A stretch of 64,000 bases of DNA from positions 1,364,001 to 1,428,000 of the forward strand of contig NZ_CP051130.1 of NCBI RefSeq assembly GCF_013378055.1. Reading direction: 5' to 3'. Under the pieces are notes generated by a model. That model saw only the letters and a program-made list of their open reading frames with translations, ran no database searches and had not been told where the DNA came from. Shown one piece after another: positions 25,348 through 33,361 of the stretch (position 1 is the first letter of the stretch; each line of letters starts with the position of its first letter). The position numbers and the translations under genes were made by a program. This stretch comes from Parasphingopyxis sp. CP4 (GTDB taxonomy: Bacteria > Pseudomonadota > Alphaproteobacteria > Sphingomonadales > Sphingomonadaceae).

Positions 25348-27348
25348 ATGAGGGTAGCGCGCACATTTTGGAATTCAGCAGGCATGGGCCTCGCACTGGC
25401 GGCTGTCCCGTCTAGCGCACAATCGCCGTCCATTGAGACGGGTGCCCTTCGCGAAGCCCCAGCCGCTGGTGTGGCGACCGAAGCAACCCGACGCGCCAAT
25501 GCTGCCATTGCCGCACGCCTTCCGCTCGCCGACCAATCCGATTTTGTCGATGCACGCCGCGGACGCATTGCGCAGATCGAGGGTGAAGCAATCCTGGCTG
25601 AGGACGGGTCGGTAGTCTGGCCGATTGCCGGCCAAGCCTTTCTGTCCGAGGATGCTCCGGATACGGCCAACCCGTCTTTGTGGCGGCAATCGGTTCTGAC
25701 CGCAGAGCACGGCCTGTTCGAGGTCACCGAGGGTATCTGGCAGATCCGTGGCTACGACCTGTCCGTCATGACGATTATCGAGGGCGAGACCGGCTGGATC
25801 ATTGTCGATCCTCTCACCACGACGGAGACCGCCGCGGCCGCATTGGCCCTTGTCCAGGAAACGCTGGGCGAACGACCGGTTACCGGCATGCTCTACACCC
25901 ACTCCCATGCCGACCATTTTGGTGGTGCGCGCGGAATACTCGATGAAGAAGAGATTGCAGCACGGAATGTTCCGGTGCTGGCGCCGATCGGGTTTTCGGA
26001 AACCGCCGTCGCCGAAAATCTGCTCGCCGGCCCCCATATGAGTCGGCGCGCAACCTTGATGTTCGGGCAGGTCATCCCGCCCTCGCCTGAGTCTCATATC
26101 GGATCCGGCCTTGGCCCCGGCATTCCGCAGGGTTCAGTCAGCCTGGTCCTGCCGACTGAAGAGATATCGGGTCGCGGCACGCGGCGGACGATCGACGGGG
26201 TGGAGTTTGAATTTATCGACGCCGCCGGAACCGAAGCACCGGCCGAGTTCATGTTTTACCTGCCAGCAAGCCGCGCGCTGCACACAGCCGAAGTCGCCAC
26301 TGGCACGCTCCATAATGTCCTCACCATGCGCGGCGCGCGAGTGCGCGATTCCCTCGCCTGGAGCCGGGCCATCGATCATGTGCTGATCCATTATGGTGCG
26401 CAGTCGGATGTGGTGCTCGCCTCGCACCACTGGCCAAGCTGGGGCACGGACAATGTCATCAGCTTTCTCAGCGGACAGCGCGACATCTATCGCTACATCC
26501 ACGATCAAACACTGCGCCGGGCGAATAGTGGCGCGACAATGATCGAGGCAGCCGAGGCGATCAGCGAACCCGATTTCACGCGCGATGCCTTTGATACACG
26601 CGGCTATTATGGGACGCTCAATCACAACGCCAAGGCCGTCTATCAATTCTATTTCGGCTGGTGGGGCGGTGTGATGGCCGAATTCAACCGCCTGCCGCAC
26701 GCCGAATCCGCGGCTCGCTATGTCGAGGCCATGGGCGGGCGGGACGCTACGCTGGATCGTGGGATCGCTGCCTTTGATAGCGGCGATTATCGCTGGGCAT
26801 CGGAAATCCTGAACCATCTCGTCTTCGCCACTCCGCAAGACGAGCAAGGGCGGACCTGGCTTGCCGCAGCCTATGAGCAACTCGGCTTCCAGGCAGAGAG
26901 TGGCCCGTGGCGCAGCTATTATCTCGGCGCGGCCAGCGAGCTGCGTAACGGCGTCCCCGATGCTGGCGGAGCGCGGCTCGGCAATGCGGACTTCCTCCGC
27001 GCCGTCCCGACCTTGGACATGTTCGACATGCTCGCCTCCCGCTATGCGCCGGAACGGCTGGATCGGGATCCGTTCGCGGTGAATTTCGTGTTCCGGGATA
27101 CCGGCGAGACAATAGGCGTCGAGATCGGTCGCAGCGTGATCGTACCACGCGACCAGGGATCCGAAACACCAGCCGCTACACTCACGCTCGATCGGCCGAG
27201 CTTTGAAGGCATGCTGCTTGGAACGGCGACACCGGCTGCTCTGATGCAATCGGGCGCATTGGAGATCAGTGGCGATGGCACGGCTGTCGCGGGATTTCTC
27301 GGCTTACTCGAGCAGCCGACCTTCTGGTTCGCGACTGCCACGCCTTAG
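25348..27348 (+). CDS. Alkyl sulfatase (SdsA1/YjcS type, metallo-beta-lactamase fold)
   Basis: A 666-residue secreted hydrolase that cleaves alkyl sulfate esters (for example dodecyl sulfate) to alcohol and sulfate. It has an N-terminal signal-like segment (ALAAVPSSAQS), the metallo-beta-lactamase zinc motif THSHADH at residues 184-190 with later ligands around HTAEVATGTLHN, the sulfatase dimerisation segment, and a C-terminal SCP2-like domain (from about residue 540, GNADFLRAV). Length is standard for the family. AGAGGGAG precedes the ATG. Sulfate released could feed the cysDNC route. Confidence 0.92.
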   Translation: MRVARTFWNSAGMGLALAAVPSSAQSPSIETGALREAPAAGVATEATRRANAAIAARLPLADQSDFVDARRGRIAQIEGEAILAEDGSVVWPIAGQAFLSEDAPDTANPSLWRQSVLTAEHGLFEVTEGIWQIRGYDLSVMTIIEGETGWIIVDPLTTTETAAAALALVQETLGERPVTGMLYTHSHADHFGGARGILDEEEIAARNVPVLAPIGFSETAVAENLLAGPHMSRRATLMFGQVIPPSPESHIGSGLGPGIPQGSVSLVLPTEEISGRGTRRTIDGVEFEFIDAAGTEAPAEFMFYLPASRALHTAEVATGTLHNVLTMRGARVRDSLAWSRAIDHVLIHYGAQSDVVLASHHWPSWGTDNVISFLSGQRDIYRYIHDQTLRRANSGATMIEAAEAISEPDFTRDAFDTRGYYGTLNHNAKAVYQFYFGWWGGVMAEFNRLPHAESAARYVEAMGGRDATLDRGIAAFDSGDYRWASEILNHLVFATPQDEQGRTWLAAAYEQLGFQAESGPWRSYYLGAASELRNGVPDAGGARLGNADFLRAVPTLDMFDMLASRYAPERLDRDPFAVNFVFRDTGETIGVEIGRSVIVPRDQGSETPAATLTLDRPSFEGMLLGTATPAALMQSGALEISGDGTAVAGFLGLLEQPTFWFATATP

Positions 27349-30683: not shown

Positions 30684-31700
30684 CTAGCTCTTTCGCCATT
30701 TGGTCCAAAGATGCCGCGCGAGCATCAGCGGCGGCATCCGCAGCCAATGCGATCGAACATAGAAAGCAAGGCGAGTGCCCTTGCGTGTCTCGCGGCCCCA
30801 GTCATCGCGCGCCAGCAAGCGGCGAATATACAGTGCGTCGCCTCTCCGGCCCCGCCCAGCGACATCGCCATCGACCGGTGTGCCATAGACGGCCTCGGCC
30901 AGACGCACGGCCCGAGCCACCGGCTTGGCCAGCTCATGCCGGCTCGCCCGCTCGCTAAGCGCCTGCCAAAAACCCGCCTGTTCGCCAAAATCGCGCAGCA
31001 ACCGATCGATATCCCAGAGATTGCGCAACCCACCGGCCAAATCGCCATCCGCAAACAAATGGGCTGCGGCGTGGCAGATCATGTCGGCTGGTGAGAGGAT
31101 GTAGAGGCCGTTTTCCAGCTGAACCGCGTCATCGAGCATCGCTTGCGGATCGGGCGTCGGGCCGGCCGTCAGCGGCAGGATAGTGTGGTGGACATCAATC
31201 ATCCGATCGCGTTCGTTGTGAATGAGCGGTGGCAGCTCATGCATGTGATCGCGATAATAGGCATCATCATATTCGTCGTCTTTCACCCATTCCCAGCCAC
31301 CCCGATCGATGAGGGCGCGTTCGACATCATCCAGCGCATCGCGCCGCACGAGAATATCGAGATCCCCGATCGACCGTCCGATCCCCGGCGACAGCCCGGC
31401 GGCCACATAGGCCGTACCCTTGAGCAGCACGACGGGCGTATCGAGCGGCGCAAGCACGCGGCGCGCCATCTCCGCTTCCCAAAGCGCCTGGCGCCTGCCG
31501 ATATCGGCCGATCGGCGCGTGTCCGCGAACAACCGCGCAACGGAGTCTGGCAGATCGAGGCCGTCCAGCCGGTGTGCAAGCGTGCCGATCAACTGCTCGG
31601 CACGGGCCATGGTGATCAGCGCTGTCCAGCCTTGCGATCCCAGTCCGGCGGTCGATGACGGGTCGCTAAGCGCGCGTGTAAGGATGCCCGCATCCATCAT
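30684..31700 (-). CDS. Nucleotidyltransferase-family protein of HPr-rel-A cassette
   Basis: A 338-residue protein of the uncharacterised nucleotidyltransferase family (PF14907). The catalytic fold is seen as VVLLKGTAYVAAGLSPGIGRSIGDLDILVRR, with the G-x-L-D-x-L acid pair, and a helical C-terminal half that includes ICHAAAHLFADGDLAGGLRNLWDIDRLL. The same family occurs in some lasso-peptide clusters next to HprK-like kinases. Its start overlaps the kinase stop (ATGA). It is the last gene of a four-gene unit. The chemical group it transfers is unknown. Confidence 0.87.
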   Translation of the reverse strand: MMDAGILTRALSDPSSTAGLGSQGWTALITMARAEQLIGTLAHRLDGLDLPDSVARLFADTRRSADIGRRQALWEAEMARRVLAPLDTPVVLLKGTAYVAAGLSPGIGRSIGDLDILVRRDALDDVERALIDRGGWEWVKDDEYDDAYYRDHMHELPPLIHNERDRMIDVHHTILPLTAGPTPDPQAMLDDAVQLENGLYILSPADMICHAAAHLFADGDLAGGLRNLWDIDRLLRDFGEQAGFWQALSERASRHELAKPVARAVRLAEAVYGTPVDGDVAGRGRRGDALYIRRLLARDDWGRETRKGTRLAFYVRSHWLRMPPLMLARHLWTKWRKS

Positions 31701-32557
31701 ATGGCAAGCTCCGCCCAGAGCTGCTCGACGCTTTCTATCGCTGCATTCGTATCGGGATAATCGACGGCCCGCGTCGGGATTGTCTTCACCAGCTTCGCCA
31801 GCGCATCAAAGCCTGGCTCCCCCAGCGCGACATAATTGGTCGAGGCCTGGGTCAAGCGGGCAAATACCTCTGCCTCGCCGATTTTGCGGACCTCCGGCGC
31901 ATGGCCGAAGCGCGGGAACAACAGCAATGCCGGTTGCGCTAGCTGCTCCATCTGCGCAATCGCACTATCGGGCGGCCTCAGATGGCGGATATCACCCTTG
32001 GGCGTATCGTGCATCAGCGGCCCCAGTCGTTCTGCATCTACCTGCCCGTCAAACAGCCCTATCGCCTCATTCTTCAGGCTGACGAGCCTTGGAAAGGCGT
32101 GGATCGCGCCCGTCTCAAGGTCGAGCAGCGCAAACTCATCGCCCATGAAGCGCCAGCCGCGCTCGCCGAGCAGTGCGGAAAGCGTCGATTTGCCGGCTCC
32201 GGACTCTCCGGTCATCAGCAGCGCCTTGCCATCCCGTTCAACGGCCGAAGCATGAAGTAGAAGGTATCTCCGCTGGCCGAGTGCCATTTGCAGGTTCATT
32301 CCCATCTCCGCACCAAGCATGCCATGCGCAAGCGAGAGCGGCGCGGCATCGGGCAGCATATAATCGCCGCCGATCATGACAGAAGGTCGGATCAGCTTGC
32401 GCCAGGGTCGCTGGGCAAACAGGCGAACCGTGAAATCAGGGATCTCGGGTTTTGGATAGCCGCGATACAAGGCTCGCATCTGGTCTAGCGGCTCGCGCCA
32501 ATCCGATCCGATCCGGAAGCCCGTCTGCCCGACGGTGACAGAAAAGCTGTGCTTCAT
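31697..32557 (-). CDS. HprK-related kinase A
   Basis: A 286-residue protein related to HPr kinase/phosphorylase. From the ATG at 32557 the P-loop is GESGAGKST at residues 117-125, preceded by the HAS segment (102-104) and followed by WRFMGDEFALLDLETG, where HprK has its catalytic acid. The kind known as HprK-rel-A is found only with a PqqD-like protein, as here. There is no PTS HPr in this context, so the phosphate acceptor is probably a peptide or protein of the cassette. ATG at 32566 is an alternative; 32557 overlaps the PqqD stop as ATGA and is preferred. Confidence 0.9.
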   Translation of the reverse strand: MKHSFSVTVGQTGFRIGSDWREPLDQMRALYRGYPKPEIPDFTVRLFAQRPWRKLIRPSVMIGGDYMLPDAAPLSLAHGMLGAEMGMNLQMALGQRRYLLLHASAVERDGKALLMTGESGAGKSTLSALLGERGWRFMGDEFALLDLETGAIHAFPRLVSLKNEAIGLFDGQVDAERLGPLMHDTPKGDIRHLRPPDSAIAQMEQLAQPALLLFPRFGHAPEVRKIGEAEVFARLTQASTNYVALGEPGFDALAKLVKTIPTRAVDYPDTNAAIESVEQLWAELAI

Positions 32558-32835
32558 GTCCGCCATACCAGTCCGGCCGCTTCGAGTTCATCGATCCGCG
32601 CCGCCAGCGCCTCGGCCAGGTCACCGCTATCGGCAAAGTCATAAACGCGCTGGAGTCGGTTGAGCAACGCACCGGAATCCGCCGGGCCTTCGCCCAATGC
32701 ATCCAGGATCTGCGGCGCTGGTGGGGCAACAATATGGGTGAGGCCCGAGGATCGATGAAAGATCAACGCAACGCCATCCAGCTCCACCAGGCGCCGGGCC
32801 TCAGGCGGATCGGCGCGATAGACGGGTGCGGTCAT
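32554..32835 (-). CDS. PqqD-like peptide chaperone of HPr-rel-A cassette
   Basis: A 93-residue PqqD-fold protein (RRE-like peptide-recognition domain) with the pattern VELDGVALIFHRSSGLTHIVAPPAPQILDALGEG followed by a three-helix segment ending IDELEAAGLVWRT. PqqD proteins bind the leader of a precursor peptide and present it to modifying enzymes. The stop overlaps the kinase gene start. It begins 19 bases after the Tat-type protein gene. Assignment to the HPr-rel-A subgroup follows from context and size. Confidence 0.88.
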   Translation of the reverse strand: MTAPVYRADPPEARRLVELDGVALIFHRSSGLTHIVAPPAPQILDALGEGPADSGALLNRLQRVYDFADSGDLAEALAARIDELEAAGLVWRT

Positions 32836-32854
32836 AAGGGATCTCGAAGGAGCG

Positions 32855-33277
32855 CTAGCTCCGCGACATCTGGATCGATGCGTAGCAGGTAAAGCCGCTC
32901 TGGCCGGACTGCAGGCGGCGAATATAATTGGTGTAAGCTTGGCTCTGGTCATAGCCATAGCCCGGGATTCGACCACCACCCAGCACGGCATCGCGAACTT
33001 CTTCGCCAATCAAATTGCGGCCCGGCGGCGGAAAGGCGCCCGGTGTTCCGGGTGGAACAACCGAACCGTCCGCAGCGATATAATTGCCCATCCGCCCAGG
33101 ATCAGGAATCGGGATCTCGCACGCCATGACCGAAATCTGCGTTTGCGCCAGCGCGGGACGCACGGTGACAACCGTCGACGCAGCTGCAGCGCCAAGCGCC
33201 AGCACCTGGCGCCTGCCGGGCTTAGTCATACCAGTTTCGCCTGTTTCAGGCGGCGTATCGTCGCTCGTACCGGTCAT
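32855..33277 (-). CDS. Tat-signal-like small protein, candidate substrate of HPr-rel-A cassette
   Basis: A 140-residue protein with a polar N-terminus, a twin-arginine segment GRRQVLALGAAAASTVVTV and an Ala-rich cleavage region (RPALAQ). The mature part is about 95 residues, rich in Gly and Pro (VPPGTPGAFPPPGRN), with two Cys (VMACEIP and FTCYASI) and a C-terminal Ser (IQMSRS). It is the first gene of the four-gene unit. The ATG at 33277 has AGGAAGGAACGC upstream; ATG 33229 has a weaker site and lacks the polar extension. No known enzyme motif is visible. A substrate role is inferred from position. Confidence 0.8.
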   Translation of the reverse strand: MTGTSDDTPPETGETGMTKPGRRQVLALGAAAASTVVTVRPALAQTQISVMACEIPIPDPGRMGNYIAADGSVVPPGTPGAFPPPGRNLIGEEVRDAVLGGGRIPGYGYDQSQAYTNYIRRLQSGQSGFTCYASIQMSRS

Positions 33278-33361
33278 GCGTTCCTTCCTGCGTTGCCATC
33301 CTGATGCTAGTCATTCTCGCACCGACTGGCGAGTGTAACAATAGCGCTGTATCAGGACATC

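Follow-up and report, generated by a model that had tools for sequence, protein, structure and literature searches.

A four-gene cassette in Parasphingopyxis sp. CP4

We analysed a 64,000-nucleotide stretch of the 2.96 Mb genome of Parasphingopyxis sp. CP4 (hereafter, the window) and focused on four consecutive minus-strand genes, which encode a protein with a twin-arginine translocation (Tat) signal, a PqqD-like protein, an HprK-related kinase and a nucleotidyltransferase-fold protein. The first gene (32855..33277) encodes the Tat-signal protein of 140 amino acids (aa), which has no known family and is our candidate for the substrate of the enzymes. It is followed after a 19-base gap (32854-32836) by the gene of the PqqD-like protein (32554..32835; 93 aa), the proposed binder of the Tat precursor, and then by those of the kinase (31697..32566) and the nucleotidyltransferase (30684..31700). 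The last two overlap by ATGA at 31700-31697, as do the PqqD and kinase genes at 32557-32554 if the kinase begins at its second ATG (by 13 bases if at the first). This arrangement had been described in an earlier reading made from the DNA letters alone (hereafter, the sequence-only reading), together with the kinase P-loop GESGAGKST (32183..32209, minus strand, read in the sequence) and the nucleotidyltransferase stretch GDLDILV, and all of it is present in the window.

The same reading had identified the second and third proteins as PqqD-like and HprK-related, which the family models upheld. The kinase matched TIGR04352 (HprK-related kinase A) with 223 bits against a cut-off of 200 (residues 10-283 of 289; NCBIfam) and the PqqD-like protein matched TIGR04353 with 58.6 bits against 35 (NCBIfam), while it fell below the Pfam PqqD cut-off (13.5 vs 23.4). 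The last protein matched Pfam family PF14907 (E = 2.8e-50; 171.7 bits, cut-off 31.2). No solved relative of it was found by sequence search; its predicted structure (pLDDT 91.2) had nucleotidyltransferase-fold enzymes as top Foldseek matches, with MenT1 the best.

At E ≤ 1, the Tat-signal protein matched no family in NCBIfam or Pfam, Tat-signal models included. Its twin-arginine signal region (residues 22-44, RRQVLALGAAAASTVVTVRPALA; 33146..33214, minus strand), delimited by our own signal profile and by alignment identity, contains a twin arginine, a hydrophobic stretch and an A-x-A, and is matched by that profile. The genome encodes TatC, and the protein is probably exported from the cell. 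Its predicted structure was of low confidence (mean pLDDT 63.4, pTM 0.49; pLDDT ~50–62 in the final block), with no Protein Data Bank (PDB) match at E < 0.5, and a profile search against solved structures gave weak matches only (E = 0.15 and up), mainly to the MelC caddie protein. The final block contains the motif T130-C131-Y-A-S134-I135 (32873..32890, minus strand), in which S134 is the proposed phospho-acceptor.

Conservation of the cassette and co-occurrence of kinase and Tat-signal protein

Kinases above the family cut-off were detected in 72 of 118 genomes of the host's order, 7 of 240 of its class and 61 of 398 of its phylum. We profiled the genomic context of 156 kinase loci, the window itself excluded: 30 from the order search, 80 from a contig scan (the best 80 of 297 candidate loci, mostly titled Sphingomonadales) and 46 from the class, phylum and further searches. 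Not all order and phylum genomes with a kinase contributed a locus, and some of the genomes are possibly duplicates of one species. The closest relatives in the contig scan were from Parasphingopyxis (kinase identity 75–82%). Profiles for the kinase, the PqqD-like protein and the nucleotidyltransferase all matched in 133 loci, a clustering beyond chance, with PqqD upstream of the kinase in 143 and the nucleotidyltransferase downstream in 144. Some loci without a match are short contigs, and in L178-L183 a small ORF at the expected place escaped the profile (by eye). One of the two refuting conditions named by the sequence-only reading was that these neighbours are not conserved elsewhere; they are conserved across the surveyed genomes, which leaves it unrefuted on that point.

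The enzymes are conserved down to single residues, whose roles we take over from HprK and the polymerase-beta superfamily. H105, K126, D143, E144, K165 and K190 of the kinase were identical in 155 of 155 sequences (the window and 154 of the 156 loci), and since the His, Lys and acidic residues are invariant, an active enzyme is expected. D113, D115 and D169 of the nucleotidyltransferase were kept in 110 of 110.

Some loci depart from the usual pattern. The records of two, titled Bacillus sp. 2B10 (L054) and Arthrobacter sp. TPD3018 (L096), carry a cassette and neighbours that are Sphingomonas-like, and are probably misnamed or contaminated. On a Methylobacterium tardum plasmid (L252), the kinase match falls within a gene whose annotation is PqqD family chaperone, suggesting that PqqD and kinase are fused there, and a nucleotidyltransferase gene lies nearby on the opposite strand. 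By eye, the cassette adjoins asparagine-synthetase-type genes in six loci from other families of the phylum (L155, L158, L160, L162, L163, L176), most of which also have glycosyltransferase-like genes and resemble exopolysaccharide clusters. Among 72,556 plasmid records, 15 had kinase matches, of which 6 span most of the kinase, and one had a Tat protein match; a mobile-element reading was dropped on account of these small numbers.

To find the Tat-signal protein we used a profile of the signal stretch built on 30 seeds, run against the 12,273 open reading frames (ORFs) of the 156 loci, in place of a loose Tat pattern that 88 of 496 background ORFs had passed. In 141 loci the top match was a same-strand ORF that begins <2 kb upstream of the kinase; one of these (L004; 4.1 bits) was judged not credible. 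The only other matches above 14 bits were again to this type of gene, its start being misextended (L061, L065, L072) or its place farther upstream (L074), downstream (L113) or on the opposite strand (L134), and weak matches in L120, L121 and L178 were admitted by eye, giving a total of 149 Tat-signal proteins. The remaining loci lie at a contig edge (L038, L111) or belong to genomes with a Tat protein elsewhere (L004, L136, L137, L143 and L175; genomes G053, G413, G424, G371 and G466). Relatives are annotated as hypothetical proteins in plasmid records of Vibrio alfacsensis and Sphingomonas parapaucimobilis, and the smallest (L144) has ~20 residues past the signal.

We aligned 42 divergent Tat proteins (alignment A2), all chosen among those that bear the motif and each made to begin at Met. 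Mean pairwise identity was highest in the signal (0.49), followed by the tail (0.41) and the middle (0.16). The invariant columns were M1 (by construction), R23, C53, C131 and S134, where the invariance of C131 and S134 is partly a selection effect, the unselected figure being the 135 of 149 given below.

With A2 as the query, a Tat match (E ≤ 0.01) was found in 74 of the 118 order genomes. These coincide exactly with the genomes whose kinase match reaches 187 bits: 72 exceed the family cut-off, some with a partial match, and G093 (197.7 bits) and G006 (187.8 bits) fall short of it. Across the phylum, a match at E ≤ 0.001 was obtained in 56 of the 398 genomes. Fifty of these have the kinase, all with matches of 1.3e-8 or better, whereas the six without it had weak matches (1.2e-4 and up), five of which cover the signal only. 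Strong matches were thus present in 50 of 61 genomes with the kinase and in none of 337 without. Ten of the eleven kinase genomes lacking an A2 match have a Tat gene of another type (type II, below) at the kinase locus, and the eleventh (G524) is 57% complete. Three features of these counts lessen what they can say for a partnership: 15 of the 74 order genomes and 21 of the 50 phylum genomes contributed rows to A2, at most 32 candidates per genome were scored in the order and at most 9 first-look candidates in the phylum, so that absences are not absolute, and the genomes are akin, so that the counts are inflated and are not of independent events.

The two genes also occur together in genomes where they are not adjacent. 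They are ~160 kb and ~280 kb apart in G035 and G080, and on different contigs in G097, G053, G413, G424, G466 and G371. The Tat gene adjoins PqqD in four of these eight split cassettes (G053, G413, G466, G371) and stands alone in the others (G035, G080, G097, G424), with PqqD remaining beside the kinase in G035, G080 and G097. Additional Tat genes were found as well: one paired with its own PqqD in G520, tandem pairs in G034 and G082, and two on either side of one PqqD-like gene in G003. Given these patterns, a kinase-Tat partnership, including where the genes are not adjacent, is well supported. Separately, seven genomes from another family of the order (L203-L209) have an extra Tat gene with C-x-x-S distant from the kinase, mostly downstream of a sigma-factor-like gene and a short YCII-like gene (by eye).

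The split cassettes also bear on the possibility that the kinase serves the phosphotransferase system as its HPr kinase, with the Tat protein a mere neighbour. The window genome does have an HPr, beside EIIA-, RapZ- and ChvG/ChvI-like genes (L249, G000:C1:850000-861000; names by eye). The ChvG- and RapZ-like genes are adjacent, without a kinase gene in between, and the cassette kinase is the sole PF07475 match in this genome; both observations speak for an HPr kinase and against a dedicated one. Other genomes (e.g. G010, G015, G053, G064), in contrast, have this kinase plus a second short HprK-like match in a frame of 150–180 aa, the kinase keeps company with the Tat protein even at a distance, and PqqD accompanies it in the 143 loci noted above, whereas HPr kinases are not known to need a PqqD protein. 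We consider this explanation improbable.

The C-x-x-S motif and a proposed modification pathway

The conserved tail carries a motif, [STN]-C-x-x-S-[ILVFMYG], which was found within the last 60 residues of 135 of the 149 Tat proteins, against 1.3 expected from shuffling. Many of the 135 are closely related; among 48 single-linkage clusters at 60% identity, 34 had the motif in all members, 13 in none and 1 was mixed. It occurred in 3 of 1109 control ORFs, a set that includes spurious ORFs. Of 27 further Tat proteins outside the set that defined the motif, 25 have it, or 26 if Ala is permitted at the final position; the sole miss is then a Vibrio protein of the other type. One more Tat protein, beyond these 27, ends S-C-W-T-S-A (G006, L214; by eye).

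The co-occurrence and the motif argue strongly, at the level of sequence, that the Tat protein is the substrate, and with moderate force that the motif Ser is the acceptor. We propose that the Tat protein encoded by the first gene has, in this cassette, its own dedicated system for post-translational modification and export, an explanation to which we assign a probability of roughly 0.6. While the precursor is still in the cytoplasm, its N-terminal (signal) region would be bound by the PqqD-like protein, a binding site that we propose with low confidence. In the C-terminal motif ([S/T]-C-x-x-S-hydrophobic), the kinase would phosphorylate the Ser (S134 in the window), and the PF14907 enzyme would attach a nucleotidyl or sugar group, probably onto the motif-Ser phosphate; the identity of this group, too, is proposed with low confidence. 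The Tat translocase would then export the modified protein, whose Cys residues (mostly two or four) could pair in the periplasm. Tat carries proteins that have already folded in the cytoplasm, which fits modification there.

The sequence-only reading had likewise inferred a tailoring pathway, and a conserved cassette of peptide- or protein-tailoring type is indeed what the survey revealed. It had called the substrate unknown, yet the first gene encodes a conserved partner that, from its co-occurrence and motif, is the likely substrate. A more far-reaching version, which we hold as less likely than not, is an unrecognised class of ribosomally made, post-translationally modified proteins in which the Tat signal doubles as the recognition leader for PqqD, a short C-terminal C-x-x-S tag is phosphorylated and then sugar-capped by the kinase and the PF14907 enzyme, and a protein of variable body is exported by Tat, some genomes having several precursors per enzyme pair.

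Other observations count against the proposed pathway. Fourteen of the 149 Tat proteins (type II; 12 from outside the class and 2 from inside) have no C-terminal motif, and their acceptor may differ. Seven of them have a C-x-x-S no more than 40 residues from the mature start (1.3 expected), in several followed by a second Cys and an S-P-G-x-W-like stretch (by eye), and the Vibrio alfacsensis plasmid copy resembles this type. Counted back from the C-terminus, the motif Ser stands at position 7 in the window protein and as far in as about position 50 in others. The Pfam and NCBIfam Tat-signal models stayed below cut-off in every protein scanned (the window protein and ten relatives), and the nucleotidyltransferase profile had no match in 12 of the 156 loci, some of them short.

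The Cys counts open another explanation, in which the Tat protein is a functional partner in the periplasm and not a substrate: its motif would serve for a disulphide or for binding, and the target of the enzymes would be some other molecule, e.g. a polysaccharide precursor. The 135 motif-bearing proteins have two (n = 104), four (n = 30) or three (n = 1) Cys, so that the number is even in 134, as disulphides would have it; the further 27 mostly have two, four or six, with nine in the Vibrio protein and three in two proteins with misextended starts. In other families of the phylum, several loci adjoin asparagine-synthetase-type, glycosyltransferase-like or nucleotide-sugar genes (by eye), and glmU, close by in 68 of 111 loci, likewise suits such a role. 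A disulphide, on the other hand, leaves the conserved Ser three residues past the Cys unexplained. Reviews of lasso peptides (PMC9266682/PMC8498205) describe PqqD-like proteins as binders of precursors, and in four split cassettes it is the Tat gene with which PqqD stays. We regard the periplasmic-partner explanation as unlikely, though less so than an HPr kinase.

The spacing of C-x-x-S would also be compatible with a four-residue ring, formed if the kinase activated the Ser for elimination and a thioether to the Cys followed, as in lanthipeptides. Some lanthipeptide synthases do phosphorylate before elimination. No lyase or cyclase family was found among the four genes (NCBIfam, Pfam), and with Cys counts that are even in most of the proteins no odd Cys would remain to form a thioether; we give this route very little credence.

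The surroundings of the cassette consist of a divergent PhoR-like histidine kinase gene on one side and a phosphoglycolate-phosphatase-like gene on the other (both below equivalog cut-offs), with glmU, named after an annotated relative, beyond the latter. The PhoR-like neighbour suggested Pho regulation, an idea that was rejected: a Pho-box pattern had 2 matches in the window against 3.98 expected, none near the cassette and none in the gap between the Tat and PhoR-like genes (33278-33361). Elsewhere in the window (25348-27348), a 666-aa ORF with a metallo-beta-lactamase-like HSHADH motif resembles alkyl sulfatases (by eye).

If the proposed pathway is true, it joins tailoring in the style of ribosomally synthesized and post-translationally modified peptides (RiPPs) to Tat export, and several lineages of the phylum would secrete a further kind of bacterial phospho- or glycophosphoprotein.

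Comparison with known systems

With the kinase (TIGR04352) and the PqqD chaperone (TIGR04353) both above curated cut-offs, the cassette belongs to what NCBIfam calls the HPr-rel-A system. The names of these families indicate no substrate, and the Tat protein is without a family in the window and ten relatives; the present analysis supplies a specific candidate substrate, and one candidate residue in it, for an enzyme system that has a name but no assigned function. A literature search for HprK-related kinase, HPr-rel-A, PF14907, TIGR04352, TIGR04353, HprK_rel or PqqD_rel_X found no paper, a search combining RiPP, twin-arginine and PqqD found nothing on this system, and one combining PqqD and HPr kinase returned lasso-peptide papers.

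The kinase shares its P-loop and conserved His with HprK and matches a solved HprK weakly in sequence (E = 8.5e-4). It differs in falling below the HprK cut-offs (TIGR00679, 20.5 vs 240 bits; PF07475, 19.2 vs 33.3) and in adjoining PqqD and Tat genes, whereas HPr lies ~540 kb away. The PF14907 protein resembles MenT1, ANT(2'')-Ia and FKRP, a phospho-sugar-alcohol transferase, in the Foldseek matches to its predicted structure and in its three conserved Asp, whereas sequence identity is 11–17%, E < 0.001 was reached for the MenT1 chain 8an4_A only, and the FKRP match is weak (E = 0.27 and up).

The proposed chemistry, phosphorylation followed by extension, is modelled on lasso peptides. As the sequence-only reading had said of the B2 protease, the genome has no match to PF13471, which we take to be its family; no lasso C cyclase was found among the families of the four genes (NCBIfam, Pfam) or the best 25 per flanking gene (NCBIfam), a search that did not extend to the whole genome. 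According to the reviews PMC9266682 and PMC8498205, the HPr-kinase homologues PadeK, ThcoK and SyanK phosphorylate a C-terminal Ser of the lasso precursor, knock-outs credit PsmN, a nucleotidyltransferase homologue, with adding hexose to that phosphate, and B1 proteins, which are PqqD homologues, bind leader peptides. Parts of this comparison do not favour our proposal. One of the two reviews leaves room, for PsmN, for the alternative of nucleotidyl transfer followed by a host glycosyltransferase. The lasso acceptor is the last residue, whereas here the Ser lies inside the C-x-x-S motif. The His-Lys-Asp-Asp of the lasso kinases would face His105, Lys126, Asp143 and Glu144, an unaligned correspondence in which the second Asp becomes Glu if the two Asp are adjacent. 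The precursor would be a Tat-signal protein of ~80–290 aa and not a lasso peptide. What the two systems share is an HPr-kinase homologue, a nucleotidyltransferase homologue and a PqqD-like (B1) protein acting on a ribosomal precursor, in our case a putative one; the cassette is one of known enzyme families with a new partner protein.

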